Source: a virus
IMG/VR virus record: IMGVR_UViG_3300003322_000724
Span: 1-39,708 of that record
Strand: one strand, 5' to 3'
Length of the DNA: 39,708 bases
In this document: one piece after another, positions 11,339 to 24,152 of the stretch
Layout of the letters: the number at the start of each line of letters is the position of its first letter
Numbering within the stretch: position 1 is the stretch's first letter
Notes under the pieces: model-generated
What the model was told of the DNA's origin: nothing
What the model saw: the letters and a program-made list of their open reading frames with translations, nothing else
The model's database searches: none
Translations under genes and position numbers: made by a program

Positions 11339-11454
11339 TTGTAAAATTTATCTGCCCATTTTTTATTACGACCTTCATATTTCATTAATCCCATTCCTCG
11401 AACATATTTTTTACCTTCGAAAACTACATATGCTTTTAATTTTTCTCTGATCAT
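11335..11454 (-). CDS. Small basic protein, 39 aa
   Basis: A 39-residue ORF starting MIREKLKAYVVFEGKKYVRG, first gene behind the promoter at 11.46 kb. The ATG is only 6 nt from the -10 box, so the message should be leaderless. It overlaps the RHH gene by 4 nt. No family recognised. Confidence 0.6.
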   Translation of the reverse strand: MIREKLKAYVVFEGKKYVRGMGLMKYEGRNKKWADKFYK

Positions 11455-11460
11455 ATTAGA

Positions 11461-11489
11461 AGTATATCATATTTGAAATCAAATTGCAA
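11461..11489 (-). promoter_or_regulatory. Leaderless promoter with palindromic operator
   Basis: On the minus strand TTGCAA (11489-11484), 17-bp spacer, TATACT (11466-11461), then 6 nt to the ATG at 11454. The spacer contains the palindrome ATTTGAAATCAAAT (11471-11484; 6-bp arms), placed to block RNA polymerase. The RHH protein is the second gene of this operon, so autorepression is likely. Confidence 0.7.
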
Positions 11490-11491
11490 AT

Positions 11492-11794
11492 CTATTCTAT
11501 TTCTGATAACGCATCCTCAATACTTTTCCCTTCGATTAAGAGGTCGAGAAATACGTGCATTTTGTATTGCCAAGGATACAAATATACTCCACCAATAAGT
11601 GATTCATCTCCGTCAGCAGTATCAGCTGAATATATTTCCTTTTCTTCTCCCCACTCTCTCACTTTGCCTACCGTTTTCCATGCTGAAGGATCAAGGAGAT
11701 ATTTCTCAATATAAACATTCTTTTTTATACTCACATGAGTAGTATTCCATCCTCCCTTTATTGCGTCTTCGATGAATTTTTGTGTGTGGATCAT
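11492..11794 (-). CDS. Hypothetical protein, 100 aa
   Basis: It starts MIHTQKFIEDAIKGGW, has a mixed alpha/beta composition with SLIGGVYLYPWQYKMHVFLD, and ends in an acidic helix. The stop is within 40 nt of the promoter of the RHH operon. No family recognised. Confidence 0.6.
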   Translation of the reverse strand: MIHTQKFIEDAIKGGWNTTHVSIKKNVYIEKYLLDPSAWKTVGKVREWGEEKEIYSADTADGDESLIGGVYLYPWQYKMHVFLDLLIEGKSIEDALSEIE

Positions 11795-11795
11795 G

Positions 11796-12065
11796 TTATT
11801 CTATAAATAATTCATTATAAATCTCATCCATCGTATCTTCTGCTATCTTCTTTGATTCAAGATGTGTGATTCCGAATCCTCCTTTGAGCAGTCTAGCGGT
11901 TATATTTGGTACATACGGGTCATCATATTCAATGGCTTCTATACATAGTTCTCTTGCTTTCTTTCGTGCTCCTTTGAAGTCTTTCTTTTTACCGATATAT
12001 CCTACATTTTGTGGGCCATTTCCGTGTTTAGTTGCCCAATATATTTTAGACAATCTTTTCTTCAC
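11796..12065 (-). CDS. Hypothetical basic protein, 89 aa
   Basis: A GTG start at 12065 overlapping the preceding stop (GTGA) gives an 89-residue protein starting KKRLSKIYWATKHGNG after the initiator. The longer ATG start at 12104 overlaps the 43-aa gene in another frame and is less likely. The N-terminal half is basic, the C-terminal half acidic and helical. Function unknown. Confidence 0.55.
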   Translation of the reverse strand: MKKRLSKIYWATKHGNGPQNVGYIGKKKDFKGARKKARELCIEAIEYDDPYVPNITARLLKGGFGITHLESKKIAEDTMDEIYNELFIE

Positions 12066-12193
12066 TGTATTGCTTGCTTTAGTTCTTCTGCAAACTTGTC
12101 GCAATAATCTCCGTCATTTCCTCCCCACAACAGTGTATCATATCCACATTTAGAACATTCACTACCCGTAAAAAAGAATATGCCTGCGTTCAT
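12062..12193 (-). CDS. Hypothetical protein, 43 aa
   Basis: A 43-residue ORF starting MNAGIFFFTGSECSKCGYDT, with C-x2-C and a third Cys near residue 31 that could bind zinc. It overlaps the next gene as GTGA. No family recognised. Confidence 0.5.
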   Translation of the reverse strand: MNAGIFFFTGSECSKCGYDTLLWGGNDGDYCDKFAEELKQAIQ

Positions 12194-12209
12194 GACTAGT
12201 AACTATATT

Positions 12210-12386
12210 TTATTCAAAGCTGAGTTTAGTAATCAAGTCTTCGATTTGATTCTGACGTGAAGTCTCTCCTAGTCCACTATTCCGGCATTCGACCAATTCA
12301 TTATTGAGTATTTCTCGTGCAATAAGTAGTTCTTTTCTTGAAAGTGTCATTACTCTTTCGCCGTCAGTTATTTTAAAGGTATTCAT
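12210..12386 (-). CDS. Hypothetical protein, 58 aa
   Basis: It starts MNTFKITDGERVMTLSRKEL and is followed by helical segments ending in LITKLSFE. The layout resembles short phage proteins with a beta start and helical hairpin. Function unknown. Its upstream neighbour ends 1 nt before its start. Confidence 0.55.
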   Translation of the reverse strand: MNTFKITDGERVMTLSRKELLIAREILNNELVECRNSGLGETSRQNQIEDLITKLSFE

Positions 12387-12387
12387 A

Positions 12388-12510
12388 TCAAAATCTTTTT
12401 TCTTTTAAATCTTCAATGAGCAATTCTACTGTTGGTATGAAGCCTTCTTTCTTTTTTTCCTTGTTGTAATTTTCAAGAAACACTATAAGTAAATCATTAA
12501 AAGTCTCCAT
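12388..12510 (-). CDS. Hypothetical protein, 40 aa
   Basis: A 40-residue ORF starting METFNDLLIVFLENYNKEKK, amphipathic and charged. It ends immediately before the 58-aa gene and begins 1 nt after the membrane peptide gene. No family recognised. Confidence 0.5.
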   Translation of the reverse strand: METFNDLLIVFLENYNKEKKKEGFIPTVELLIEDLKEKRF

Positions 12511-12511
12511 A

Positions 12512-12601
12512 TTATTTAAGCATATTTATTGCTGATAGGACTGCTAGCAAGATTATCAAAACAATACATACCCACGCGACTGATTGTACTGGATTTTTCA
12601 T
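12512..12601 (-). CDS. Single-pass membrane micro-protein, 29 aa
   Basis: A 29-residue ORF with a continuous hydrophobic segment (about residues 7-26, SVAWVCIVLIILLAVLSAI) flanked by Lys at both ends. It is too short for a family call; membrane insertion is the only clear property. Confidence 0.5.
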   Translation of the reverse strand: MKNPVQSVAWVCIVLIILLAVLSAINMLK

Positions 12602-12602
12602 A

Positions 12603-12788
12603 TTATTTGTTCAAATGATTAAAGAGCACTATTTCAGCTTCTTCCTCCCCTGCATCAATTCCGAGATCAGTAAACTTATTCTCTAGCCATGATTCATATA
12701 CATTCTCAAAATTGTCTTTAATAACCATTGGATTTTCTTTCATAAAGAGTGCATGACAGAAATCTTGAGCATTTAGTACTTTTTCCAT
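12603..12788 (-). CDS. Hypothetical acidic protein, 61 aa
   Basis: It starts MEKVLNAQDFCHALFMKENP; the second half is strongly acidic (AGEEEAEIVLF). Its stop abuts the membrane micro-protein start. No family recognised. Confidence 0.55.
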   Translation of the reverse strand: MEKVLNAQDFCHALFMKENPMVIKDNFENVYESWLENKFTDLGIDAGEEEAEIVLFNHLNK

Positions 12789-12821
12789 AAGATGTTTGTA
12801 ATAGTGTCTTAGGTGTTTCTA

Positions 12822-13046
12822 TTACTTCTTAAGTATACTCTTTTTGTCCTTAATGTCCATACTCATATGTGGATAAGTTGCCCATAGGTGAGCCTGACTA
12901 GAAGTTACATTCCTATTGAGTTTTTTACCCATAATTTCAGCTATTTTACGGTAGGAATAGCCTTTTTCACGTAGTTTATAGGCAATAGAACGTTCTTTTT
13001 TGAACTTCTTTACCCAGATATATTTTCTTTTGTCGTCTTTTTTCAT
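12822..13046 (-). CDS. Helix-turn-helix protein, 74 aa
   Basis: A very basic protein with a probable helix-turn-helix at residues 20-50 (SIAYKLREKGYSYRKIAEIM, then turn and SSQAHLWA). The pattern 'REKGYSYRKIAEIMG' is typical of resolvase/transposase-type HTHs. It may be a regulator. Its gene overlaps the NinG-like gene by 4 nt. Confidence 0.6.
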   Translation of the reverse strand: MKKDDKRKYIWVKKFKKERSIAYKLREKGYSYRKIAEIMGKKLNRNVTSSQAHLWATYPHMSMDIKDKKSILKK

Positions 13047-13603
13047 ACTTTCATTTCTTTTAATTTTTCTGAGTAATATTTTATTCTCTGGACATATTCA
13101 ATCTCATCCCATTTAAATGAGCGTTTCATTCCTTGTAATCTCTCTATTTCTAGAAGAACATCTATACCATATTTTGTTATCATATTCACTCTCATCAGAA
13201 TCAGATGCCATCCATTACCTTTGAAATCTGCATTACACTGTGCACATTCACCATTAACATTAAATTCTGAGAAACATAGTTCAAGATCATTTCCTCCTGC
13301 CGGTGCAAAGTGTCCTGCTTGCAGTTCTGAATATGTTTTTCGTTCACCGCATGATATACATATTCCTTCATCTCTCTGACGAATGTATTGACTGAACACA
13401 GTCCAGAGCATTCCCTTTAGAATATCTGTCCTTGTTGGTTTCTTTGCAGTGCCCCAACGTGAGCATCGTATATTTGTAAGTTCGTATTGAGCAATGATTT
13501 GTTTACGAAGCTCGATCTTCTTTGCTCGCTGGGTTTTCTTTATCTTCTTCGATACTGGCTTTTTATTCCAATAATTCTTTGCTCGGAGTGGAGTTTTTTT
13601 CAT
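13043..13603 (-). CDS. NinG-like recombination nuclease, 186 aa
   Basis: A zinc-binding endonuclease-type protein of the lambda NinG family: basic N-terminus, the stretch LWTVFSQYIRQRD, C82-x2-C85 (ICISCG), QAGHFAPAGG with H98, then C120-x2-C123 (CAQCN), and the closing segment YGIDVLLEIE. NinG proteins work in RecF-type recombination and Holliday-junction processing; here it pairs logically with the ERF annealing protein at 16.2 kb. Length is within the family's usual range (~200 aa). Confidence 0.85.
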   Translation of the reverse strand: MKKTPLRAKNYWNKKPVSKKIKKTQRAKKIELRKQIIAQYELTNIRCSRWGTAKKPTRTDILKGMLWTVFSQYIRQRDEGICISCGERKTYSELQAGHFAPAGGNDLELCFSEFNVNGECAQCNADFKGNGWHLILMRVNMITKYGIDVLLEIERLQGMKRSFKWDEIEYVQRIKYYSEKLKEMKV

Positions 13604-13740
13604 TTTGCTAAAAAAATCATACTAAGAAATATGAATAATAGGCTTATAATAATTCCCCAGAATGAACTATGCAGAATAGCAGCCCAGAGAGACATCGAAA
13701 ATACTCCTATTGCAAACGAATGTTGACAAAAATATTTCAT
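13600..13740 (-). CDS. Membrane protein, 46 aa
   Basis: A small hydrophobic protein with one or two membrane segments (about residues 8-24 and 26-45). It overlaps the NinG-like gene start by 4 nt (ATGA). No family recognised. Confidence 0.55.
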   Translation of the reverse strand: MKYFCQHSFAIGVFSMSLWAAILHSSFWGIIISLLFIFLSMIFLAK

Positions 13741-13763
13741 ATTAATTGATTATTTTTTTATAT

Positions 13764-14105
13764 CTAAAATAATGTTTTCATTTTTAAATCTTCGGAATAT
13801 CCAGGAGAGTATCCTAATGAGATTTCATAATTCTGCTCTACTGATTCCTTTGTTCCGTCCTCTTCGCCGTAATCGCTTCCACGCAAATCTCTTCGTTCCT
13901 TAAGAATCATACGCCAATAGCGTGTCATACTTTCTGCGTCTGTCAATATTTCTGCAAAGTATTTTGGATCATGAGCAATTTTATTGTTACTTGAAAGGTG
14001 ATACTTCTCTTGGAGAATAGCAGCTATACCGGCAGTTTTATTACGTCTCTCACGGAAATTCTTATCATTTTCAAGTTTTTTTAGTACGACCTGTTTTATA
14101 TCCAT
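13764..14105 (-). CDS. Hypothetical protein, 113 aa
   Basis: The ATG at 14105 (MDIKQVVLKKLENDKNFRER) is chosen because the longer reading from 14204 has an odd Trp/Tyr/Cys-rich stretch that is the shadow of the membrane gene at 14108-14248. The chosen protein is charged and helical in the first half, with ESMTRYWRMILKERRDLRG, and Tyr/Gly-rich near the end. Function unknown. Confidence 0.6.
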   Translation of the reverse strand: MDIKQVVLKKLENDKNFRERRNKTAGIAAILQEKYHLSSNNKIAHDPKYFAEILTDAESMTRYWRMILKERRDLRGSDYGEEDGTKESVEQNYEISLGYSPGYSEDLKMKTLF

Positions 14106-14107
14106 AG

Positions 14108-14248
14108 CTATTTTTTGATTATATCTTTCCATCCAGTAATGAACATACATGCAAGAATACCAATAACGGTCCCAATTCCAATAAACGCACATGCTACACC
14201 ACACATAAAGAAAAATATATTAAGTTGTGTTCTGTTTAATTTAGGCAT
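14108..14248 (-). CDS. Membrane protein, 46 aa
   Basis: A small hydrophobic ORF starting MPKLNRTQLNIFFFMCGVAC with one long membrane stretch (about residues 11-38) and a basic tail. No family recognised. Confidence 0.5.
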   Translation of the reverse strand: MPKLNRTQLNIFFFMCGVACAFIGIGTVIGILACMFITGWKDIIKK

Positions 14249-14260
14249 CTTGTTTCATTT

Positions 14261-14593
14261 CTAATGCTGATTAAATTGTTCCGCTTCCGCGTTTCTGATA
14301 ATTGCCCTGAGACCGCCTATGAGGGCTTTGATTCGTTTGATCCGACTTTCGTACCAGTTGTGCTCAATCCCTTCTTCTGTGCGTTGCCATGCTTTGTCTG
14401 TAGAAGCATCTGACTTCTGTTCTTTTCTTAGAGCAAGCCACTGATGCGGGTGCAGTTTTTCAATATCAGATATTTTCGCCAGGTAAAATGAAAGTTCTCC
14501 CGATAGCGTGGCTATATATTCAGCGCATTGATGGGGATTAGAGATAAGTTCATTAGACCTCAGTTCTTGTTCGATTTTTTCTATTGTTTCCAT
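14261..14593 (-). CDS. Hypothetical helical protein, 110 aa
   Basis: Starts METIEKIEQELRSNELISNP; composed of helices with HPHQWLALRKEQKSDAS and a basic region RIKRIKALIGGLRAIIRN. No motif recognised. It lies 2 nt after its upstream neighbour. Confidence 0.6.
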   Translation of the reverse strand: METIEKIEQELRSNELISNPHQCAEYIATLSGELSFYLAKISDIEKLHPHQWLALRKEQKSDASTDKAWQRTEEGIEHNWYESRIKRIKALIGGLRAIIRNAEAEQFNQH

Positions 14594-14595
14594 AT

Positions 14596-14784
14596 TTATT
14601 CATCTGATTGAATTGCTGATAATTTGATTCCACAAAACGGACAATATGTTACTTCACTCGTATATTCTCCATTCCCGACATATAATTTGCCATCAATTTC
14701 CCAGCATCCTTCAATAGCGTGTCCAAACTCCCCCTTATATGCATTTGAAGAAATTACACAATAATGTTCGTTTTCTTTATTCAT
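14596..14784 (-). CDS. Small zinc-binding phage protein, 62 aa
   Basis: Ends with YCPFCGIKLSAIQ, a C-x2-C knuckle commonly found at the C-terminus of short phage proteins; a second possible ligand pair (H7, C9) lies near the N-terminus. Function unknown. Overlaps the upstream gene's stop by several nt. Confidence 0.6.
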   Translation of the reverse strand: MNKENEHYCVISSNAYKGEFGHAIEGCWEIDGKLYVGNGEYTSEVTYCPFCGIKLSAIQSDE

Positions 14785-15097
14785 CTGAATCTGTTGCTTT
14801 TATAAGGTCGATACATTCTCTGACGGTTGTTCTGAAAACTGCTTCTTCATTATCTTCATATGTATTTGTTCTACAATGCTTTTCTAAAATTCCGACGATT
14901 CTTGAGCGTTCTTCCAATAAGACAGAAGAAATGTATGATTGTATTTTTTCTAGGTCTATATCTGAATTTACAATTCTTATTTGTGGCAAAGTGCCTTTTC
15001 CAAGAACACCATCAATATAGTAAGTTTCGGCCTTTTGGAATTGTATACCTGCTTCTTCGAGCACCTTTTTCAAGTCTTCTTTTTTAGGCATGGTCAT
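14777..15097 (-). CDS. Hypothetical protein, paralogue of the 9491-9790 gene, 106 aa
   Basis: Begins MTMPKKEDLKKVLEEAGIQF and carries LLEERSRIVGILEKH, matching the paralogue at 9.5 kb in start and in this core motif. The leader bases upstream of the ATG are also similar. Function unknown. Confidence 0.6.
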   Translation of the reverse strand: MTMPKKEDLKKVLEEAGIQFQKAETYYIDGVLGKGTLPQIRIVNSDIDLEKIQSYISSVLLEERSRIVGILEKHCRTNTYEDNEEAVFRTTVRECIDLIKATDSDE

Positions 15098-15102
15098 GAG
15101 GA

Positions 15103-15231
15103 TTAGATTTTAATATTACATTTTTTACAAACTGCAAATGGATCGATTACTTCATAATCGCCTATTTTAGTCTTTGTGATTTCGATATCATGGAAACATA
15201 TGCCAAATATTTTTTCTATTATTTTTTCCAT
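15103..15231 (-). CDS. DUF1660-like small protein, 42 aa
   Basis: A 42-residue protein with ICFHDIEI near the start and AVCKKCNIKI at the end, the C-x-H ... C-x2-C pattern of DUF1660-type small phage proteins. Lies directly after the gene at 15233. Function unknown. Confidence 0.5.
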   Translation of the reverse strand: MEKIIEKIFGICFHDIEITKTKIGDYEVIDPFAVCKKCNIKI

Positions 15232-15232
15232 A

Positions 15233-15721
15233 TTATTTATCTTCTGTTAGTTCCCCGTCTTTAACGACAAGGGAAGTAGCTTTATCTATAATTTCCTCTA
15301 AGTGACGGAGGCCGCCGATTCCACCTGCGCTGTTGATGCTTGCGATAATGGATTTCTTCATAGCCGATGCGGTCTCTTTACGGACTTTGGGAGCGTACTC
15401 TTGTTTACATAATTCCCAACCATCCTGTGTGCCTTTCTTATAATCTTGGGAGGCGGTGAGTGAAATAAGAGACTCAATAAAAGGAAATATGAAGTTTGGA
15501 AATGCCTCCCCTCCAGTTACTTCGTCCCATTCTTTCAAAAAGTCTTTCTTCCAAGCATCCACATCTGTGTGGGAGGGGGAGGGGGAATGACAGAAGCATC
15601 CTTTGAATCCGCAATATTCAGTTCCATATATCTGACTTTCTTTCATAGAAGAAGGGATACTTGCATGGTAAGTACACTTTTCACAACACTTCTTTTCTTC
15701 TTTTTTAGGGGATTGGTTCAT
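15233..15721 (-). CDS. Cys-rich hypothetical protein, 162 aa, paralogue of the 10632-11174 gene
   Basis: Begins MNQSPKKEEKKCCEKCTYHA; about seven cysteines in the first 45 residues suggest one or two zinc sites. Then SHTDVDAWKKDF, LTASQ and VRKE segments shared with the paralogue at 10.6 kb, and an end ELTEDK shared with the 51-aa gene at 10082-10237. The family appears to be a mosaic of reused pieces. Function unknown. Confidence 0.6.
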   Translation of the reverse strand: MNQSPKKEEKKCCEKCTYHASIPSSMKESQIYGTEYCGFKGCFCHSPSPSHTDVDAWKKDFLKEWDEVTGGEAFPNFIFPFIESLISLTASQDYKKGTQDGWELCKQEYAPKVRKETASAMKKSIIASINSAGGIGGLRHLEEIIDKATSLVVKDGELTEDK

Positions 15722-15876
15722 AATTTTTTTACTTTAATATCACCACAATTAGAGCAACATAGGCAATATTTGTAATAATTTGGGATTGTCATACTAATAC
15801 CAACATCATATACGTTTACAATTTGTATAGTTTTCCACTTATGCTCACATAATCCGAGTAGTTTTCTTAGATTCAT
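15718..15876 (-). CDS. DUF1660-like small protein, 52 aa
   Basis: Starts MNLRKLLGLCEHKWKTIQIV and ends with CLCCSNCGDIKVKK. The C-x-HKW ... C-x2-C pattern is characteristic of the DUF1660-type small phage proteins. Overlaps the next gene by 4 nt (ATGA). Function unknown. Confidence 0.6.
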   Translation of the reverse strand: MNLRKLLGLCEHKWKTIQIVNVYDVGISMTIPNYYKYCLCCSNCGDIKVKKL

Positions 15877-15879
15877 ATA

Positions 15880-16173
15880 TTAAAATCGAATCTGGTTTGC
15901 CGCATCATTCATATCAATTTCTTCAGGTCGTGCTTCGCCTTCTTCACGTTTTACGTCCTCTGTAATGCTATAGCCTTTACGTGTCTTTGTTCGATCTGTA
16001 TGATCGACCCACGCGTCACTAAGTTTACAAGAGAGATATTTTCCGTTCTTACCATCTTTGATCCAACATGCACCAACTTTAACAAAATCTTCACCGACTT
16101 TCATCGAGATTTCATAGTCGGGCTGTTTATCGCTTTTTTTATCTACTTTAAAAATTGAAAAATTCTTTTGCAT
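15880..16173 (-). CDS. DUF736-like protein, 97 aa
   Basis: A beta-rich start (FSIFKVDKKSDKQPDYEISM) then GACWIKDGKNGKYLSCKLSD, resembling the DUF736 layout in which a small OB-like domain ends in '(G)YLSVKLDD'. The second half is charged. It lies 11 nt downstream of the ERF gene, where a single-strand DNA accessory protein would be sensible, but that role is inferred. Confidence 0.5.
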   Translation of the reverse strand: MQKNFSIFKVDKKSDKQPDYEISMKVGEDFVKVGACWIKDGKNGKYLSCKLSDAWVDHTDRTKTRKGYSITEDVKREEGEARPEEIDMNDAANQIRF

Positions 16174-16184
16174 ATTATTTATGA

Positions 16185-16613
16185 TTAAAAAGGCATATCA
16201 TCATTTGTAATATTTTGGACTTTTTCTTTTGTTTTCTTTTCTATCTGTTCACCAGTTGCATCATTATCCTTATCTGTTACAAGACCGAGGAGGCTAGAGA
16301 GCGCATATCGACGGATATACGTGATTGCAGAGCCGAGTACTTGGAAGTCATTCATTCCCTTAAGGGAAACACCTTGGGGAATACTCGTATTGCTTTCGAT
16401 CGTTTCACCGCTTTCTATATGAAAGATTGTCGTTTTTATCGTTGTATCGTTTACCGCCTGATAGAACCCAAGGCCGTGCTTTTTCATGAGTGGGTTAATA
16501 ACCTTGAATATTGCCGGTAGATCACTGTATGAGTATCCATACCCTTGAGTTTCTTTCAAAATAACTGGTACTTCCTGTTCAAATGCTGCGAGCGATTTAT
16601 ATAGATTCTTCAT
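16185..16613 (-). CDS. ERF-family single-strand annealing protein, 142 aa
   Basis: Contains the ERF hallmarks: a helical start (MKNLYKSLAAFEQEVPVILK), GYGYSYSDLPAIFKVINPLMKKHGLGFYQ, and SAITYIRRYALSSLLGLVTDKDNDA. ERF proteins anneal complementary strands during phage recombination and genome circularisation. The length (142 aa) suits a compact ERF core. The protein ends DDMPF, like a single-strand-binding-protein tail. The start at 16613 is preferred over 16643, whose extra 10 residues overlap the previous gene's end. Confidence 0.85.
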   Translation of the reverse strand: MKNLYKSLAAFEQEVPVILKETQGYGYSYSDLPAIFKVINPLMKKHGLGFYQAVNDTTIKTTIFHIESGETIESNTSIPQGVSLKGMNDFQVLGSAITYIRRYALSSLLGLVTDKDNDATGEQIEKKTKEKVQNITNDDMPF

Positions 16614-16614
16614 A

Positions 16615-16749
16615 CTATTTAAGATTAGGTACGATGAATACAAGTATCATCATTACAGTGAGAATAAAGCTTATTGCTAATTCTCTATTATTAAATTCTT
16701 TTATTTCTCTCCTTTCTTTTGAGAATCTTCCTTCGTAGTAGTTAAGCAT
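16615..16749 (-). CDS. Single-pass membrane protein, 44 aa
   Basis: A charged N-terminal half (YYEGRFSKERREIKEFN) is followed by one membrane helix (about residues 24-41). Its start overlaps the end of the YopX-like gene in another frame. No family recognised. Confidence 0.55.
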   Translation of the reverse strand: MLNYYEGRFSKERREIKEFNNRELAISFILTVMMILVFIVPNLK

Positions 16750-17116
16750 GTTTTATTTTATTACTTTCAAGCAAATTTTTATGTTCCCAGATATTGCCGA
16801 TGATTTCTAATTTAGAATAATAATTATCAATCAAATAGGATTTAGCATTTCTAAGAGAAGTGAAAATCCATCCGTAAGCATTATGATCAGTATTCCAACC
16901 GAATTCGATTATAAAAATAATATCTCCTTTTGTATTTTTAAGAATATCCCCCTCATAAATCTCAGTTCCGTTTTTGTCTTTGAGGCCTGTGTATTGCATG
17001 ACTTTCCAATCATAGTCAGACCACAACTGAAATTCCCCACCCTCCGTAGAGGGATTCCAATAATACATTTTTCTTAATGTTTTATCCCAAAATCTAAATT
17101 TTATTTCTCGATCCAT
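16742..17116 (-). CDS. YopX-like protein, 124 aa
   Basis: Classic features of the YopX family: start MDREIKFRFWD, centre MQYTGLKDKNGTEIYEGDIL, end LEIIGNIWEH. These proteins are common in phages and plasmids; function is unknown. It is the first gene after the structured leader and DnaA-box region at 17.1-17.35 kb. Confidence 0.88.
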   Translation of the reverse strand: MDREIKFRFWDKTLRKMYYWNPSTEGGEFQLWSDYDWKVMQYTGLKDKNGTEIYEGDILKNTKGDIIFIIEFGWNTDHNAYGWIFTSLRNAKSYLIDNYYSKLEIIGNIWEHKNLLESNKIKHA

Positions 17117-17168
17117 TTAAAGATGTTTATATTTATAAAGTCCCTATTAAATAATTTTGAAAAGTACC

Positions 17169-18337: not shown

Positions 18338-18355
18338 CGATGTTCATAGAACTTA

Positions 18356-18439: not shown

Positions 18440-18445
18440 ACCTAA

Positions 18446-18474
18446 ATTATAAAAAACTATATCAAAAATTGCAA
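18446..18474 (-). promoter_or_regulatory. Promoter of the 80-nt RNA
   Basis: On the minus strand TTGCAA (18474-18469), a 17-bp spacer and TATAAT (18451-18446), a near-perfect sigma70-type promoter with no protein gene behind it. Confidence 0.65.
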
Positions 18475-18537
18475 GTGTGGAAAACTAAAATCAATCAATT
18501 CTTTACATAACAAAATGAATTATTAACTCCGTAAATA

Positions 18538-18566
18538 TTTACATATAAACCATAATATGTTATTAT
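18538..18566 (+). promoter_or_regulatory. Promoter of a plus-strand small RNA
   Basis: TTTACA (18538-18543), 17-bp spacer, TATTAT (18561-18566). No ORF follows before the hairpin at 18648, so it likely drives a non-coding RNA. Confidence 0.55.
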
Positions 18567-18572
18567 ATAGAT

Positions 18573-18685
18573 AATCCTGAAAAGGAGATCGTTGCTTGAG
18601 GCAACTACACCCTGGCGAGGGAAAATACGCGCTATATAGTCTAAAACGAGCAAGTTCTCATTAATGGGGGCTTGCTCTTGTTATA
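18573..18685 (+). ncRNA. Candidate plus-strand small RNA, ~110 nt
   Basis: Begins about 7 nt after the promoter above. Contains a GTTGC/GCAAC hairpin, a purine-rich CCTGGCGAGGG segment, and a final hairpin GAGCAAG/CTTGCTC (18648-18677) followed by a weak U-rich run. No ORF of useful length. The class is not recognised. Confidence 0.45.
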
Positions 18686-18723
18686 GGTCAATTTTGAGCG
18701 TTATAGAACGTTTTAAAGACATA

Positions 18724-18939
18724 CAAAAAAGCCCCAAGAATATCAAAACTTGGAGCTAATCTGTATATATCCCAGAATATAGGTTCTTAAGCTATATTTT
18801 TGCGCCGTTACTCGGTTATTACTTAACCTGCTCTGAGCGAGGTTTTGCTGATACCTTTCTCGAACGCCCGCGATTTATTTTTGACTCTAAGAGAATGTAA
18901 TAGATTATCAAATTTGTTTGAACATCTCTAGTAAGAGTC
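18724..18939 (-). ncRNA. Candidate small RNA, ~215 nt, with terminator
   Basis: Behind TATAAT at 18951-18946 (with -35-like TGTACA 17 bp upstream) lies a gene-free transcript. TTTGACTCT near the 5' end can pair with AGAGTCAAA about 50 nt later. The 3' end is a clear intrinsic terminator: AGCTCCAAG/CTTGGGGC (18756-18731) followed by six U residues (18730-18725). The length is in the range of regulatory RNAs, but no known family was recognised. Confidence 0.55.
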
Positions 18940-18984
18940 AAACATATTATACCTATTACAAACTCCAATGTACACTGTGGAAAA

Positions 18985-19419
18985 CTAAGCAGTAGGCGTT
19001 ACTGCAATGATAGCATTAAGAATCTGCTGAAGGATACCAGTCTGTGCAGCAGTAGCCGCAGAAGCCCTATCATCGCGGAGAACGCGAATCTCACCTTCGA
19101 GACGTGTCTTTTCAAGTTCACAGAATTTTTCCTCGACGAGCTTGGACATTCTGCGCTCGGAATCCTTTACTTCGCTGACAGCGGCAAACTTTGCGTCCAT
19201 TGCAGCCTTTTCAGCATCGACGACACGATCGAACAGGTGAAAGTCAGCAGTATTTCGCTGACCATCGGAAATGGCGATGCGACGGCCAGTACCGGCTTCC
19301 GCGTCTTTGATGTCCGATCGGACGCCAGAGAGGGTAGCGAGAGTATTGCAGTCTACGCCATATGATGGGTCATAGTCACGACCATAGGAAACAGGGGCAA
19401 TTTGTGTTGATGGATTCAT
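18985..19419 (-). CDS. Hypothetical protein with coiled coil, 144 aa
   Basis: N-terminal disordered segment (MNPSTQIAPVSYGRDYDPSY), then a long helix from about residue 55 to 120 with heptad-like Leu/Val/Ala (AKFAAVSEVKDSERRMSKLV), and a hydrophobic C-terminus ILQQILNAIIAV. A structural or membrane-contacting role is possible. A TATAAT-like box lies about 60 nt upstream with a short CCTGT/ACAGG hairpin in the leader. No family recognised. Confidence 0.6.
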   Translation of the reverse strand: MNPSTQIAPVSYGRDYDPSYGVDCNTLATLSGVRSDIKDAEAGTGRRIAISDGQRNTADFHLFDRVVDAEKAAMDAKFAAVSEVKDSERRMSKLVEEKFCELEKTRLEGEIRVLRDDRASAATAAQTGILQQILNAIIAVTPTA

Positions 19420-19535
19420 AAATTAGATAATTAAATACTAATCCTGTCCATAACAGGGTTCTTTAGCCCGTAGCTATCTTTATTATACTATATGTGCCAA
19501 ACTTAAGACAGTATTTATTACCTAATTCAAACTAT

Positions 19536-19712
19536 ATGGAAAAACTATTGAAAGGCCTGTCAAAATGCTGTCCTCTGTGCAAAAAGATACTTTTTAGATA
19601 TATGAAATTGAAAGGGGAGGGTTCGTTCGAAGTTAAGTGTAGCCACTGCCAGGAAATAATACTTGTTTTAGTAGGAACAGATACGACAATAGAAACTCAT
19701 AAATGTAAATAG
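19536..19712 (+). CDS. Com-like zinc-finger protein, 58 aa
   Basis: Starts MEKLLKGLSKCCPLCKKILF; C12-x2-C15 and C35-x2-C38 frame an LF...G.FEVKC core that matches the layout of the phage Mu Com protein, an RNA-binding translational activator. An in-frame GTG at 19494 is a weaker start. One of few plus-strand genes; it ends right before the minus-strand tRNA-Ile. In Mu, Com activates translation of the DNA-modification gene mom; no mom is visible here, so its target is unknown. Confidence 0.65.
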   Translation: MEKLLKGLSKCCPLCKKILFRYMKLKGEGSFEVKCSHCQEIILVLVGTDTTIETHKCK

Positions 19713-19784
19713 TACGACTTGAGGGAATCGAACCCCCGACAACGACTGTATAAGAATCGCGTTCTGCCACTGAACTAAAGTCGT
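19713..19784 (-). tRNA. tRNA-Ile, anticodon UAU
   Basis: A complete 72-nt cloverleaf on the minus strand: acceptor ACGACTT/AAGTCGT, D-arm GTTC...GAAC type, anticodon arm CGATT-CTTATAC-AGTCG with U33 and anticodon UAU, T-arm with GTTCGATTC. A is the discriminator; CCA is not encoded. The UAU anticodon reads AUA; many bacteria instead use a lysidine-modified CAU tRNA for this codon. Confidence 0.85.
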
Positions 19785-19791
19785 AATGGTG

Positions 19792-19840
19792 CGCGGGTTT
19801 TTTAATGACCCGCGACTTGGGAACCAGACAACGTGTCTGG
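19792..19840 (-). other. Two hairpins between the structured RNA and tRNA-Ile
   Basis: CGCGGGT/ACCCGCG (19792-19814) and CCAGACA/TGTCTGG (19824-19840). Neither has a U-tract on the minus strand, so they may be processing or spacer hairpins in a transcript that carries RNA B and the tRNA. Confidence 0.4.
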
Positions 19841-19855
19841 GTATATATGGAATTG

Positions 19856-20345
19856 TTTGCCGAAAGAAAGAACTGATCTGCTCAAACCCCCGTCTAAGGC
19901 ATCGTGATATTTCTTACCCCTGACAACAAATCACTTTAGTCGCCAGGACCTTAAACTGACAGGGATTTGAACAGACCAGATTGTGAGAAGTGCTTAGAGC
20001 AAGTGGCAAGGATTCCCGTAGCCACCTTGCATGGATTTTTCTATTTTCTCGCTGATTCCTCCTTAGACCCGAGAAACCTCCATCGAGGTAAGTAAATCTT
20101 AGCGTCTACTACTTGAATGCCCCTTTATGAGAGTGGCACTCCACGTCTATTCCGCCACACTTGCTTTAAACAATCCTCGTTCCTATACAAAGCCCTCCAT
20201 CGGATTAAGGGAGTTATCCATCTTGATTCCTGAAAAAGAAATCATGGCGCAAATACCTTCCGATATTCTCCCTCCTTCAATCACGATGCAGAGCAAAGTT
20301 TGGATCCCCTGCCTTTACGACAGAGGGCTTCATATAGGAACTGGG
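19856..20345 (-). other. Gene-free, structure-rich region around RNA B
   Basis: No coding frame with plausible features. It holds the RNA B core, an additional 6-bp hairpin CCTCTG/CAGGGG near 20310-20330, and further stems on the minus strand. Its length (about 490 nt, with a tRNA following) recalls large ornate phage RNAs such as ROOL or GOLLD, but no similarity could be tested. Confidence 0.4.
19998..20165 (-). ncRNA. tRNA-Leu-like RNA with insertions (RNA B core)
   Basis: Minus strand: closing helix AGCAAGTG/CACTTGCT, then TGGCGGAATAG...GTAGACGC, a tRNA-Leu D-arm split by about 35 nt, a stem GATTT/AAATC enclosing two hairpins (ACCTC/GAGGT and TTTCTCG/CGAGAAA), and a T-arm-like GCAAG/CTTGC with an enlarged loop. 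The D-loop insert itself contains a hairpin with loop CTCATAA, like a CAU anticodon loop. It shares TGGCGGAATAG, GTAGACGCTAA, ATGCAAGGTG and AATCCTTGCC with RNA A in the same order, so the two are related. Confidence 0.45.
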
Positions 20346-20356
20346 TACAGTGTACC
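20344..20356. promoter_or_regulatory. 13-bp palindrome (possible operator)
   Basis: GGTACAGTGTACC is a perfect palindrome around a central base, between the terminator of the holin gene and the structured RNA region. It fits a dimeric repressor site. Confidence 0.35.
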
Positions 20357-20365
20357 ATAAACACA

Positions 20366-20385
20366 AAATCCCCAAAAGGGGATTT
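20366..20385. terminator. Terminator after the lysis genes
   Basis: AAATCCCC-TTTT-GGGGATTT hairpin on the minus strand followed by TTTTGTGTTT. It lies 45 nt after the stop of the holin candidate and should end the lysis transcript; the symmetric A/T arms make it usable in both directions. Confidence 0.75.
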
Positions 20386-20430
20386 CATGCAAGTAAGTCT
20401 TCCAACGAAAGAAGACATATTTAGTATATA

Positions 20431-20655
20431 CTATTCTTTCCAGGATGCCCACTTGTGACCGGCCATGACTACACCTGTAAGAAATCCGTTTACGAAAGCG
20501 ACACAAAGTGCAGTGACGAATGTACGTGTTTCAGCAAGTGTAGCGATTTGTCCTTCTTTTGTATATGAAGCTACGATAAGCATCATTGTAGTAAAAGCTG
20601 ATGCGAGACCTGCTTTGAGAAAACGTTTAAGAATTGATTTTGTTTTTATTGACAT
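20431..20655 (-). CDS. Putative holin, 74 aa
   Basis: Two hydrophobic segments (about residues 14-31, LASAFTTMMLIVASY, and 46-66, VTALCVAFVNGFLTGVVMAG) separated by a short polar loop, with a basic N-terminus and a short charged C-terminus. The size and topology match class II holins, and it lies in the same unit as the amidase. It would open the membrane to release or activate the endolysin. No sequence family recognised. Confidence 0.6.
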   Translation of the reverse strand: MSIKTKSILKRFLKAGLASAFTTMMLIVASYTKEGQIATLAETRTFVTALCVAFVNGFLTGVVMAGHKWASWKE

Positions 20656-20659
20656 AATT

Positions 20660-20827
20660 TTATATTAATGATGAATATATGGAGTGAGTATGTTTCACTT
20701 CCGAATGACAATTTTTCCGCTCACATTTCCAACCCTTAGGCGTTGGTACTTCTACAATAAAAGTTCCGTCGTCTACCATCGTAGATAAAACTTTAAATTC
20801 TGTATTACTAAATACTGGTTTTCCCAT
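20660..20827 (-). CDS. Hypothetical protein, 55 aa (leaderless)
   Basis: Starts MGKPVFSNTEFKVLSTMVDD; beta-rich, with a C-x5-C and His-rich end (CERKNCHSEVKHTH) that could bind a metal. The longer reading from 20914 overlaps the 44-aa gene. A -10 box TATAAT with extended TGG lies 6 nt before the ATG. Function unknown; lysis accessory from context. Confidence 0.6.
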   Translation of the reverse strand: MGKPVFSNTEFKVLSTMVDDGTFIVEVPTPKGWKCERKNCHSEVKHTHSIYSSLI

Positions 20828-20833
20828 AAGATT

Positions 20834-20839
20834 ATTATA
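20834..20839 (-). promoter_or_regulatory. Extended -10 promoter for the 55-aa gene
   Basis: Minus strand TGGTATAAT, with the hexamer 6 nt upstream of the ATG at 20827. The -35 is poor, but the TGn extension can compensate. Confidence 0.55.
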
Positions 20840-20969
20840 CCACGATAATAAACATTGTTGGATAGATTCCAATCTCTGAATAAATTCCTGTACCAGTAGA
20901 CATACAATCACCAACGTATTTTATATTTCCGAAGTTATTTTCATAGTCACTTCTATAGTTATATTCCAT
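20835..20969 (-). CDS. Hypothetical protein, 44 aa (leaderless)
   Basis: A 44-residue ORF starting MEYNYRSDYENNFGNIKYVG with a hydrophobic end. Its ATG lies 6 nt after TATAAT (20981-20976, with TGT extension). Its stop overlaps the next promoter. No family recognised. Confidence 0.5.
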   Translation of the reverse strand: MEYNYRSDYENNFGNIKYVGDCMSTGTGIYSEIGIYPTMFIIVV

Positions 20970-20975
20970 GATGTT

Positions 20976-20981
20976 ATTATA
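20976..20981 (-). promoter_or_regulatory. Extended -10 promoter for the 44-aa gene
   Basis: TGTTATAAT on the minus strand; hexamer 6 nt before the ATG at 20969; overlaps the amidase stop region. Confidence 0.5.
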
Positions 20982-21573
20982 ACACACTTTGTAATAGTGC
21001 GATAGCTTGTTTGATCTTTTCAGATTTGTCGTCTTTAACTGGTTGTGGATTTGATTTGTCTATTGCAAACTGTACATCTTGTTTAAACTGATCCCATGTT
21101 TTTCCTATAGTATTAAGCGCAGTTATCGGATCTTTACGGCGTGCTGGGTCGAGTTGAAAATGTCCTGCGATATTATTTGATTTGAGACCAAATTTGATGC
21201 ATTTAGATGCTATGTATTCTACATAGTTTCTGTACGCTGCTATATTATCAATCTTGCCACCATAACATAGTTCTATTCCTAGAGCATAGTCATTTGCATC
21301 GCCTCCGAAGAGAATATTATCTATAGTTTCGGTGTATCTCACGTGCCACGCTTTTTCGGAGTCAGGGACGACTTCGATCACTCCAGTATCGTCAACAAAC
21401 GCATGTGCTGAGACTTCGGCTTCATTGGGAGTTGAAGTATAGTAATTGGCATTTTGTAGGGCTGTTGAGCCAGGATTTCCTGTATCGTGCGCGACTATGA
21501 ACTTTACACCATTTAGTTTAAGACCTGATCGGCGTTTTGTTCCTGATAGGATATATTTCGTTATCAATTGCAT
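20977..21573 (-). CDS. N-acetylmuramoyl-L-alanine amidase (endolysin), 198 aa
   Basis: An Amidase_2-type zinc hydrolase cleaving the sugar-peptide amide bond of peptidoglycan. Visible: VKFIVAHDTGNPGS with the zinc His29, SAHAFVDDTGVIEVVPD, ALGIELC, AGHFQLDPARRKDPI with the second zinc His138 and the Lys/Asp acid pair. C-terminal residues 170-198 are a helical tail. The ATG at 21573 is chosen over 21831 because a consensus promoter lies immediately before it; the upstream extension looks like non-coding DNA. It is the first gene of the lysis group. Confidence 0.85.
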   Translation of the reverse strand: MQLITKYILSGTKRRSGLKLNGVKFIVAHDTGNPGSTALQNANYYTSTPNEAEVSAHAFVDDTGVIEVVPDSEKAWHVRYTETIDNILFGGDANDYALGIELCYGGKIDNIAAYRNYVEYIASKCIKFGLKSNNIAGHFQLDPARRKDPITALNTIGKTWDQFKQDVQFAIDKSNPQPVKDDKSEKIKQAIALLQSVL

Positions 21574-21579
21574 GTATAA

Positions 21580-21608
21580 ATTATACCTTATGGTGGTCCT
21601 CTTGTAAA
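21580..21608 (-). promoter_or_regulatory. Leaderless promoter of the amidase gene
   Basis: Minus strand TTTACA (21608-21603), 17-bp spacer, TATAAT (21585-21580), 6 nt to the ATG. A 29-nt direct-repeat copy ends 7 bp upstream of the -35, a likely activator site. Confidence 0.7.
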
Positions 21609-21615
21609 ATATTTC

Positions 21616-21644
21616 ATACGTTAGTGTCGCACAATACTTCTTTT
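21616..21644. repeat. 29-nt direct repeat, copy 1
   Basis: Identical over 29 nt to 24008-24036, in the same orientation. It contains TTAGTGTCGCACAATACTTC. It lies directly upstream of the amidase -35 box. Confidence 0.8.
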
Positions 21645-21847
21645 CAGTCACAGAGAATGTGTATATTCTACCGAGTAGGGGAGTGGTGGGGGAGGAGAGA
21701 GGAAATATTTTCCGACACACTTGATTTATTTTTTTGCTCGTGAGAGAATATACATGAAAGTCATTCGTTAACCGAAAATGGATTTTTCTCCGCTTGGTTT
21801 GGTAGACCAAGCACATGGAGGGCGCGGACATTATCAGCTAACCGTAA

Positions 21848-21988
21848 AAGAGACACTAAGAAAGTTTTGCACGGTGCTGGGACAAGACGATTAAATCGTT
21901 AAGTCCTGGCTTACCACTGGGATGAGTTTATGTTTCGCAAGAGACATAACCTTGTCTAGCGCCGCGCAAAGAGTTTTTAGTGTCTTTT
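21848..21988 (+). ncRNA. Structured RNA element with GNRA tetraloop (RNA C)
   Basis: Plus strand: outer stem AGACACTAA/TTAGTGTCT, second stem TTTTGCACGGTGCT with AGCGCCGCGCAAA (G-U pairs favour the plus strand), and inside a junction with hairpins ACGAT/ATCGT and a 9-bp stem TTATGTTTC/GAGACATAA closed by a GCAA tetraloop. A U-rich run follows. Unknown class; could be a leader of the small plus-strand genes or a stand-alone RNA. Confidence 0.55.
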
Positions 21989-21994
21989 GTTTTA

Positions 21995-22110
21995 TAGCGA
22001 GCTATATAGAGCACGCTTGATTACCCTGCATGCGTGATCTCGGCATGTAAGCATCTCCGTGTCGAACGGAAAGAAAAAGTAAAAATAAAGAGATAAGGAT
22101 TGTTCTACAC
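21995..22110 (+). other. Leader of the plus-strand small-gene pair
   Basis: Three small hairpins on the plus strand: TATAGCGAGCTATA, GCACGC...GCGTG and TCCGT...ACGGA. A purine run AAGGAT lies about 10 nt before the ATG at 22111. No good promoter seen in this interval; RNA C and these genes may form one transcript. Confidence 0.35.
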
Positions 22111-22254
22111 ATGGCAAAAAACGAACGAACCTCGAAGAGTGTTGGGACACTTGCTTCACGAGTACTCAGTGGCGAAAGGAAAGCTACACAAAGTGACGCT
22201 CGTCGTCTTGCAGCAAGCGTTCTTACCCAAAGACCAGACAGAAAAAGGCGTTAG
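22111..22254 (+). CDS. Small basic protein, 47 aa
   Basis: Starts MAKNERTSKSVGTLASRVLS and ends TQRPDRKRR; Ser/Ala/Lys/Arg-rich. The pattern MAKN.RTSK.VA..AS..L with a final 'S.L.QRPD' occurs in small plasmid/phage proteins of unknown function as I recall them. Its codon usage (CGT, ACC, CTT) and SD-like leader differ from neighbours, hinting at recent acquisition. It is read opposite to almost all neighbours. Confidence 0.6.
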   Translation: MAKNERTSKSVGTLASRVLSGERKATQSDARRLAASVLTQRPDRKRR

Positions 22255-22320
22255 TATTTTATTCGCTGGTTTAATCACTTTGACAAGCTAGTCAGAAGCG
22301 GCGAAAAAAATTACAAACGC

Positions 22321-22464
22321 ATGAATAAATTCTCTGTCTGTATTCCAGACTATACAAATGGTTTGGTATGGTGCCAACACTTCAATGGAAGATGGGCACC
22401 GCCATTCCCAATGTTGGACTGGAAAGCAAAAAACTCGCCAGAAATTGACGAGTCTAATGCTTAA
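22321..22464 (+). CDS. Small protein, 47 aa
   Basis: Starts MNKFSVCIPDYTNGLVWCQH, then FNGRWAPPFPMLDWKAKN and an acidic end. Trp- and Pro-rich, probably a compact fold. It follows the 47-aa gene at 66 nt and is closed by a UUCG terminator, so the two likely form one unit. No family recognised. Confidence 0.6.
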   Translation: MNKFSVCIPDYTNGLVWCQHFNGRWAPPFPMLDWKAKNSPEIDESNA

Positions 22465-22489
22465 AATCTCCACGATTTTAGACACATCA

Positions 22490-22507
22490 AGCCCTTCGGG
22501 GCTTTTT
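22490..22507 (+). terminator. UUCG-capped intrinsic terminator
   Basis: AGCCC-TTCG-GGGCT followed by TTTTT on the plus strand, a textbook rho-independent terminator closing the small plus-strand gene pair. Confidence 0.85.
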
Positions 22508-22594
22508 GTGTATGTACTCATTATAACCCTAGGGCCATAACTTGTGAAAGACACTTTAACTTAACATATTAGTTAAGTCAATTATAAAGAATTT

Positions 22595-23263
22595 TTAAAG
22601 TTTAAGCCAAAGGTTAGTAAACAAACTTTGACAATATATATTTCCGACATCATCTATATGAGATGAGTTACAGACTTCTTCTTTGAGAGAAGCTCTAAGT
22701 TGGTTTTCTCTAAACTTTAATTCCTTTTGTTTCAGAACGATTTTTGATGATATTGAACTTATTTCTTTTTCTTTCTCATAACAATTCTTTTCTTCTTCTG
22801 ATAAAGATCTTACATCTTCATAAGGAGAGTTTAGTTTTTCTTTAGGAACTTTTGCCCATATGCTACAACTTGGAATTACATTTTTGTTGAGCTTAATTGC
22901 AAGGTCTTCTTTCATACTTTTAAGTTCATTTTGTAGATCAATTTTCTGATTATTGAGATCGAAAAGTTCTGAATTTAATGGATCAGAAGCAATGATTTCA
23001 GAATTTCTTTGAAAACCTGCTTTAACAGAGGCAAGAATCTGTGCTTCTGACCATATACCTGAATTAACAGAAATTACAGGTTTAGGAACAGTAATAGAGT
23101 TTGGTATTGGTGTCGGAGGCAATAAAGGTACCTCTGGAGACGTTATAGGGATCATAGAAGGGGATACAAGAGCCAATTGACGGTTTCTTGCCTGAGATAC
23201 AGATATACCTGTACCTATGAGCAAAATGAGGGCAATAAAGCCCATAAATATGTATTTTTTCAT
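22595..23263 (-). CDS. Secreted or membrane-anchored coiled-coil protein, 222 aa
   Basis: A basic start and hydrophobic segment (about residues 4-22, MGFIALILLIGTGISV) form a signal peptide or anchor; a Pro-rich linker (residues 35-60) follows; then a long Glu/Lys helix (residues 95-200) with cysteines at roughly 132, 163, 202 and 213 that could form disulfides. Its single anchor and periplasm-facing coiled coil recall spanin-like or surface-exclusion proteins; neither is proven. It has a switch-like leader at 23263-23358. Confidence 0.6.
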   Translation of the reverse strand: MKKYIFMGFIALILLIGTGISVSQARNRQLALVSPSMIPITSPEVPLLPPTPIPNSITVPKPVISVNSGIWSEAQILASVKAGFQRNSEIIASDPLNSELFDLNNQKIDLQNELKSMKEDLAIKLNKNVIPSCSIWAKVPKEKLNSPYEDVRSLSEEEKNCYEKEKEISSISSKIVLKQKELKFRENQLRASLKEEVCNSSHIDDVGNIYCQSLFTNLWLKL

Positions 23264-23358
23264 TGCAAGTCTTAATTATTTTAAAAGCAAAACACCGCCT
23301 TTGAGAGGGTAGACTTGCAAGAGAACCCACCCCAAGGCGGAGCTTTATTTGCAAGTCT
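23263..23358 (-). promoter_or_regulatory. Switch-like RNA leader of the 222-aa gene
   Basis: On the minus strand, AGACTTGCAA (23358-23349), then a hairpin CCGCCTT/AAGGCGG (arms 23340-23334 and 23301-23295) with inner GGGT/ACCC, whose loop displays TTGCAAGTCT (23320-23311), then AGACTTGCAA again (23272-23263), whose last A is the first base of the start codon. The loop can pair with either copy but not both, so translation start could be exposed or masked. Confidence 0.55.
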
Positions 23359-23404
23359 GGTATTTTGTTTTTATATTTATATAATACTTTCGTATTTATG
23401 TCAA

Positions 23405-23551
23405 TCAATCTTCAAGGGACTCAATAATGGGATAAAATGATCTTTCTATGTCTATAAGCAGTTTTACTTTTGTATGACCTTCGCTATCTATGAAGAGAAG
23501 AAAACCGCTTCCATCTTCGTTAGGGAGCCACCTGACATTTGATATGGACAT
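23405..23551 (-). CDS. Small hypothetical protein, 48 aa (leaderless)
   Basis: Starts MSISNVRWLPNEDGSGFLLF, beta-rich, then VKLLIDIERSFYPIIESLED. Divergent from the 52-aa plus-strand gene at 23619. Promoter TAGACA (23585-23580), 16-bp spacer, TATACT (23563-23558), 6 nt to ATG. No family recognised. Confidence 0.55.
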   Translation of the reverse strand: MSISNVRWLPNEDGSGFLLFIDSEGHTKVKLLIDIERSFYPIIESLED

Positions 23552-23557
23552 ATAATA

Positions 23558-23612
23558 AGTATATCCAAATCGTCTATAGTGTCTATACTTACTTGGGGAT
23601 TCTTGATATGAT
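23558..23612. promoter_or_regulatory. Divergent leaderless promoters with inverted repeat
   Basis: Minus: TAGACA (23585-23580), TATACT (23563-23558). Plus: extended TGATATGAT (hexamer 23607-23612), 6 nt before ATG at 23619. AAGTATA at 23557-23563 and TATACTT at 23584-23590 form an inverted repeat over the minus promoter, a possible operator. Confidence 0.5.
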
Positions 23613-23618
23613 TATTTT

Positions 23619-23777
23619 ATGAAAAAAGACGAAAAGAAAGATATCGACGAAGCGTTCAGAAAAATTGTCTTTATTTGTTATCCAATGATCGAAGAAGGGA
23701 AGAAGATTACTGTAGAAAAAATCAAGAAAATCCATACGATCGCCAAGGAACAACTGAGAAAAATAAGGGGAAAATAA
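23619..23777 (+). CDS. Small Lys-rich protein, 52 aa
   Basis: Starts MKKDEKKDIDEAFRKIVFIC, very charged and helical, ends QLRKIRGK. Its ATG is 6 nt after an extended -10 box. Divergent to the 48-aa gene. Possibly nucleic-acid-binding from its charge; no family recognised. Confidence 0.55.
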   Translation: MKKDEKKDIDEAFRKIVFICYPMIEEGKKITVEKIKKIHTIAKEQLRKIRGK

Positions 23778-23784
23778 TATTCTA

Positions 23785-23981
23785 AAAATCCGTTTTGATG
23801 CTATTATCTATTCGCAGTTCCTTGAGTAAGAACTGCGTGAGATTCTTGATATTGAGAAATCCTATATATGGAAATCTTAAAACTCGTTCTCGTCCTTTTG
23901 ATATTGCGAGAATTAAATAAACGATAATATCGACAGATAATCGTCATAGCCCGGCGATTTTTCTGTATCAAAACGGATTTT
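23785..23981. repeat. 197-bp element with 15-bp terminal inverted repeats
   Basis: AAAATCCGTTTTGAT (23785-23799) and its exact reverse complement (23967-23981) bracket the element. Inside are a GCAGTTC/GAACTGC hairpin and a 19-codon hydrophobic ORF. The arms could close a large cruciform/stem in RNA or be ends of a small mobile element. No target-site duplication was seen. Confidence 0.55.
23868..23927 (+). CDS. Possible hydrophobic micro-peptide, 19 aa
   Basis: ATG-initiated ORF encoding MEILKLVLVLLILRELNKR: a hydrophobic core and a charged tail, as in type I toxin peptides. It lies inside the inverted-repeat element. There is no promoter or SD of note, so this is weak; it could be chance. 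Confidence 0.25.
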   Translation: MEILKLVLVLLILRELNKR

Positions 23982-24007
23982 CAAAATACTACTTGACAAG
24001 TTATATT

Positions 24008-24036
24008 ATACGTTAGTGTCGCACAATACTTCTTTT
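24008..24036. repeat. 29-nt direct repeat, copy 2
   Basis: Identical to 21616-21644 in the same orientation, 2.39 kb away. A TTGTCA hexamer lies 8 bp from it on the minus strand, mirroring the repeat-to-(-35) spacing at the amidase promoter, but no -10 box follows. Confidence 0.75.
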
Positions 24037-24117
24037 GCGATGTCAATAGGTATACATATATTATAGCAAATAGTTTTAAACTTAGCAAAATAAGTTTGTG
24101 TATTGTTTCTTTATTTA

Positions 24118-24146
24118 TTGATTAATTTTTAATTTTTGACTATAGT
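24118..24146 (+). promoter_or_regulatory. Leaderless promoter of the 29-aa peptide
   Basis: TTGATT (24118-24123), 17-bp spacer, TATAGT (24141-24146), then 6 nt to the ATG at 24153. Confidence 0.55.
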
Positions 24147-24152
24147 TTAAGT

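Follow-up and report, generated by a model that had tools for sequence, protein, structure and literature searches.

Candidate leaderless promoters with a 6-nt gap between the -10 box and the start codon in a phage family that probably infects Patescibacteria

Phage genes that lack a leader and are expressed from host-type promoters are represented by lambda cI and by the Thermus phage phiYS40, whose leaderless transcripts are said to have been described by Shean in 1992 and Sevostyanova in 2007. Among bacteria, Zheng et al. (2011; PMC3160421) recognize TA-led leaderless genes by a TANNNT -10 box whose distance to the start codon is about 12 bp, and place this loose TAnnnT signal most strongly in Actinobacteria and Deinococcus-Thermus. 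In Deinococcus-Thermus, reporter assays demonstrated that leaderless genes are expressed from a -10 motif placed a few bp ahead of the ORF, that there are constraints on its spacing, and that a -35 box strengthens it (PMC12340547). Leaderless signals have also been discussed for other phyla that are poor in Shine-Dalgarno (SD) motifs (PMC5397173), and RSA-ATP1, a tailed phage of 39 kb that infects a patescibacterium, uses genetic code 25 and comes from a study in which NinG-like phage proteins were annotated (PMC13059738).

Here, we analyzed a viral stretch of 39,708 nt (IMG/VR record IMGVR_UViG_3300003322_000724; hereafter, the window). One of the four hexamers TATAAT, TATACT, TATAGT or TATGAT ends 6 nt before an ATG (gap 6) at eight places across both strands, and all eight open plausible genes. 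The candidate promoters, together with two at longer gaps, are as follows.

6453-6458, minus strand: TGC-TATAAT-TACCGC-ATG, extended -10, gap 6; gene 6309-6446, 45 aa, directly after the GroEL-like gene
8891-8896, minus strand: TATAAT, gap 9, -35 box TTGTCA at 8914-8919, spacer 17, a strong promoter; gene 8699-8881, 60 aa
11461-11466, minus strand: TATACT, gap 6, -35 box TTGCAA at 11484-11489, spacer 17; gene 11335-11454, 39 aa
20834-20839, minus strand: TGG-TATAAT extended -10, gap 6, overlapping the stop codon of the upstream gene; gene 20660-20827, 55 aa
20976-20981, minus strand: TGT-TATAAT extended -10, gap 6, overlapping the endolysin stop codon; gene 20835-20969, 44 aa
21580-21585, minus strand: TATAAT, gap 6, -35 box TTTACA at 21603-21608, spacer 17; endolysin gene 20977-21573, Amidase_2, 198 aa
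23558-23563, minus strand: TATACT, gap 6, -35 box TAGACA at 23580-23585, spacer 16; gene 23405-23551, 48 aa
23607-23612, plus strand: TGA-TATGAT extended -10, gap 6; gene 23619-23777, 52 aa, divergent from the gene at 23551 (minus)
24141-24146, plus strand: TATAGT, gap 6, -35 box TTGATT at 24118-24123, spacer 17; ORF 24153-24242, 29 aa, hydrophobic, the weakest gene call
27162-27167, minus strand: TGG-TATAAT extended -10, gap 10; gene 25931-27151, 406 aa

The initial annotation had listed seven of these gap-6 sites (11454, 20827, 20969, 21573, 23551, 23619 and 24153), the gaps of 9 and 10 nt at 8881 and 27151, -35 boxes with 16-17 bp spacers at 11454, 21573, 23551 and 24153, and TGn-extended -10 boxes at 20827, 20969 and 23619; every one of them is present in the sequence. 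The eighth site, at 6446 (minus), was absent from that annotation, surfaced through gene calling, and is kept in a 99%-identical contig. Five of the eight genes were called independently; the caller passed over the other three, the short ORFs at 20827 (55 aa), 23619 (52 aa) and 24153 (29 aa). In all eight, the first T of the hexamer lies at -12 from the start codon, within the roughly 10-12 bp expected of a TANNNT box.

Taken on its own, the window is suggestive of a fixed spacing but is weak evidence and not proof. By chance, the 146 core hexamers and 1447 ATGs of the two strands would form 2.66 pairs at any single gap. Eight were seen at gap 6, but other gaps reach comparable numbers, with seven pairs each at gaps 13 and 34 and eight at gap 43. 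It is the comparison of gap 6 with shadow ORFs and other ATGs across the phage family that makes the evidence strong and decides the matter. We gathered about 80 related viral loci by terminase alignment, made our own gene calls, and removed duplicate upstream regions. In these related phages, where the initial annotation had suggested looking for the spacing, gap 6 again forms a peak: a core hexamer stands there at 20 of 1233 ATG gene starts relative to 31 of 31266 other ATGs (p=8e-16). Equal frequency before shadow ORFs had been named beforehand as grounds for abandoning the spacing, and it proved about ten times rarer there (5/2922; Fisher p=2.6e-7). Without the window, gap 6 still occurs at 15/1169 starts; the window is richer than its relatives (5 of its 64 called starts; p=0.003). 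Overall, gap 6 is a minority feature, found at 8 of about 70 window genes and 1.6% of family starts.

The surrounding sequence resembles sigma-70 promoters. Upstream of family genes that are headed by intergenic DNA, TGnTATAAT (18 vs 2.0) and TTGAC-TAnnnT (13 vs 2.1) are enriched, as is TATAAT itself, and either a 4/6 match to the -35 box or a TGn accompanies 65% of phage gap-6 sites, compared to 25% when all starts are examined at the corresponding position. The combination of TATAAT with TTGACA at 16-18 bp or with TGn is found in the window, in the phages, and in Patescibacteria. Bacteroidota-type promoters were rejected (TAnnTTTG, 16 vs 17.8 expected; TAnnTTTG at -7 paired with TTG at -33, 2 vs 1.6). 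In sigma-70 geometry, a 6-nt gap after the -10 box puts the A of ATG at the canonical +1. The initial annotation had transcription beginning at or next to the start codon; a fixed spacing that would place +1 there stands, and the position itself is read from canonical promoter geometry. The gap-6 hexamers would be active promoters, and the RNA 5' ends of their genes are predicted to fall at the start codons.

Which host would read these promoters was approached through the terminase large subunit (TerL). No relatives were found at the DNA level among named phages, whose TerL proteins match at only about 23% identity. When 380 Patescibacteria genomes, a set reached through a Saccharibacteria genome found by 16S pattern, were searched with a profile, five of them gave a strong TerL match (E 1e-111 to 1e-120), in two cases on a large contig (0.82 and 1.10 Mb). 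The same search of 301 Chloroflexota, the only control phylum, returned one weaker match (2.6e-33). Class-level searches added further Patescibacteria matches, and one class yielded none (0/288). At the DNA level, the first half of the window gave only tRNA-like and short weak matches to the 380 genomes. No close prophage or CRISPR spacer came to light. The phage belongs to an uncultivated family that probably infects Patescibacteria. Because the Patescibacteria TerLs are about 30% identical to that of the window (36-38% to other members of the phage family), the host phylum is likely rather than proven.

The same signature recurs in Patescibacteria genomes, which we sampled at up to 20 kb per stretch; several host samples were examined, and the per-class figures are exploratory. 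In pooled samples (779 starts), gap 6 accounts for 30 sites and most gaps for 1-6, U precedes the start codon in 45% of starts, and SD motifs occur in 15%. An unselected sample of 40 genomes has gap 6 at 16/498 starts on a background of 1.85 per gap (Poisson p=1.6e-10 vs far gaps; Fisher p=4e-12 vs shadow ORFs, for which the host set was slightly larger than that used for the starts). Across 39 host gap-6 sites, T, T, G and A reach maxima at -35, -34, -33 and -30 from the ATG, resembling TTGACA, and T-G is in excess before the hexamer. The class with the most TerL matches had gap 6 at 9/103 starts at first and at 5/306 in a follow-up sample, and another class, sampled separately, had 3/257 and no significant peak. 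The Chloroflexota sample had 0/202, SD motifs at 38% of starts, and no U preference. Since Patescibacteria share both gap 6 and the TTGACA-like element, the phage appears to follow the grammar of its host.

Alternatively, the host may lie outside Patescibacteria, in a lineage with few SD motifs and sigma-70 promoters, and the TerL link may be old or indirect; the leaderless reading would stand in that case. The identity of only about 30% to Patescibacteria prophage TerLs would allow for this, as would a TerL scan of 84,980 genomes in which no relative was confirmed and no closer cellular relative was found. We consider such a host rather unlikely, as Patescibacteria contain the nearest cellular TerLs found, and U at -1 together with gap 6 matches them and not the Chloroflexota sample. 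Furthermore, promoters of the Bacteroidota type are not seen, and the use of TGA as a stop argues against Mycoplasma-type hosts.

Translation context bears on a second alternative. SD words occur at approximately their shuffled frequency across the 1233 family starts and at none of the window genes; host genomes retain some (about 0-30% of starts), whereas the phage family has none above chance. U occupies -1 in 58% of family start ATGs vs 22% of other ATGs, and A is preferred at -3, -5 and -6. Since operon-internal genes share the U preference, it is a translation signal rather than a promoter signal. Esposito reportedly put forward in 2003 an extended codon-anticodon model in which U at -1 pairs with the initiator tRNA, and the preference fits that model. 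Spacing between family genes peaks at -4 and +1.

A/T-rich, SD-free starts combined with TAA stops might yield TATAAT-like words with no promoter function at all. Loose hexamers do peak at gap 3 as well, TANNNT counts are high at several gaps in operon-internal genes, and two window hexamers (20969 and 20827) contain an upstream stop codon. Strict hexamers, however, peak at 6 and number only 0 to 4 at gaps 4, 5 and 7 (gap 5, 0; gap 7, 4), with about two at each gap beyond 13 nt. Ten of the family gap-6 sites, half of the total, precede genes whose upstream intergenic DNA spans at least 40 nt. The peak is therefore no product of stop-codon overlap, and the intergenic distance of 7 that such overlap needs is not common. 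The hexamer is moreover coupled with a -35 box or TGn at the right distance in both phages and hosts, which leaves composition a very improbable source of the spacing. A secondary family excess at gap 8 (11 sites) suggests that some leaders are 1-2 nt long. Real promoters whose transcripts all carry leaders of 1 to 5 nt and are near-leaderless in function, with initiation at a distance of 8 to 10 nt or more from the -10 box, would accommodate that excess and the longer gaps at 8881 (9 nt) and 27151 (10 nt), but are scarcely likely given the main peak at 6, the purine (A of ATG) at the canonical +1, and an initiation point that at gap 6 would fall inside the start codon.

The genes served by the candidate leaderless promoters are varied. 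In the window, gap-6 sites head the endolysin, small genes of unknown function, and the divergent pair 23551/23619; in relatives, they precede inserted nuclease-like genes, a gene resembling the terminase small subunit, and others (labels based on sequence and position). The initial idea that the spacing governs a class of small phage genes is too narrow: the same gap stands before the 198-aa endolysin, a 399-aa protein, and many Patescibacteria chromosomal genes, and it therefore looks like a host-type promoter grammar. Orthologues among related loci mostly lack the promoter, and it is shared only by identical copies, by one pair resembling the terminase small subunit (gaps 6 and 7), and by one nuclease-like pair (gaps 6 and 8). 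A compact unit of hexamer, 6 nt and ORF would let one gene be inserted and expressed alone.

Several other elements stand out in the window and its relatives. An H-type pseudoknot (nnGTG-CTAA-stem2-aCTCACnn-stem2') lies 14-24 nt before head-region gene starts and is conserved among relatives (loci L031, L034, L043, L045, L048, L050, L053, L056, L066, L068 and L072; for example, L066:5224-5256). Its stem 2, of 3-8 bp and differing sequence, pairs in 15 elements, and the element occurs twice in tandem; the summed stem length is 76 relative to a mean of 42 and a maximum of 63 in shuffles (permutation test), and the loci scanned gave no Rfam match. A second 5' element before head-region genes is a hairpin with a TCTCGG-like loop followed by CCTGCGTAAA directly before the ATG, found upstream of 1214 (minus) and 37227 (minus) in the window and in L012, L026, L038, L041, L044, L054, L056, L063 and L082; it too had no Rfam match in the window or the related loci scanned. 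A possible noncoding RNA at 23765-23998 (minus) has a 28-bp closing stem (MFE -67.7 kcal/mol, z -6.4), is preceded by TATAAT at about 24005, and had no relatives in our searches. A 35-nt repeat precedes both this putative RNA (24002-24036) and the endolysin promoter (21610-21644); repeat D6 was found in no other viruses.

The window also encodes a GroEL-like chaperonin at 6464-8047 (minus), with 27 matches among related loci (best 37-42% identity), and a tRNA-Ile at 19712-19784 (minus) with anticodon TAT; ATA is common in the window, at 308 of its 812 Ile codons. Direct repeats in the early region, spaced about 4.5-5.3 kb apart (11141-11188/15688-15735, 9761-9804/15068-15111 and 10069-10101/15220-15252), suggest an old duplication of small genes.

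We propose, with a probability of about 0.8, that the gap-6 sites are host-type sigma-70 promoters phased with +1 on the A of ATG, which would produce leaderless mRNAs in a phage that probably infects Patescibacteria. The host RNA polymerase would read a -35 box, about 17 bp, TATAAT, 6 nt and the ATG in that order, and the resulting leaderless mRNAs would mainly serve singly transcribed accessory, lysis and inserted genes. Translation in these phages, and largely in their hosts, would be independent of SD pairing. The start codons of operon-internal genes would lie in A-rich sequence and be preceded by U at -1, and these genes would often overlap the preceding stop or begin 1 nt after it. Where a gene needs its own promoter, that promoter would abut the start codon, and the ribosome would recognize the 5'-AUG.

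These patterns suggest that Patescibacteria and their viruses often make leaderless messages. A broader scheme, which we regard as doubtful, is that SD-independent initiation is the rule throughout Patescibacteria and their phages, with leaderless +1-on-AUG for promoter-proximal genes, U at -1 (extended initiator-tRNA pairing) for internal genes, and the covarying phage 5' pseudoknots before head genes as SD-free initiation or control elements. Surveys of leaderless expression have so far dealt mostly with cultured phyla. If Patescibacteria and their phages share a measurable fixed-phase promoter, it would account for the expression of genes that lack a ribosome-binding site, improve start-codon and promoter calling in both, offer a compact expression design for patescibacterial hosts, and give a sequence signature that links orphan viral contigs to Patescibacteria.

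Finally, we return to the described systems. ORFs adjacent to a -10 box are established in other phyla, and our incomplete coverage of the literature on leaderless expression or Shine-Dalgarno motifs in Patescibacteria, Saccharibacteria or the Candidate Phyla Radiation returned no paper that reports such promoters; the promoters described here are therefore no new mechanism but a known kind of leaderless promoter in a new phage family and, apparently, a new phylum. Likened by description only, lambda has one leaderless gene and phiYS40 a host rich in them. RSA-ATP1, also likened by description only, is similar in size and probably in type of host but uses code 25, and its study does not mention promoters (PMC13059738). 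The Deinococcus-Thermus system belongs to another phylum and co-exists with an RBS motif (PMC12340547) that is absent from this phage family. The TA-led genes (PMC3160421) are alike in position, since the first T lies at -12 in the window genes as well, but here a full TATAAT is accompanied by a -35 box or TGn, and the setting is a phage family together with Patescibacteria, which the excerpted text of that survey does not name.
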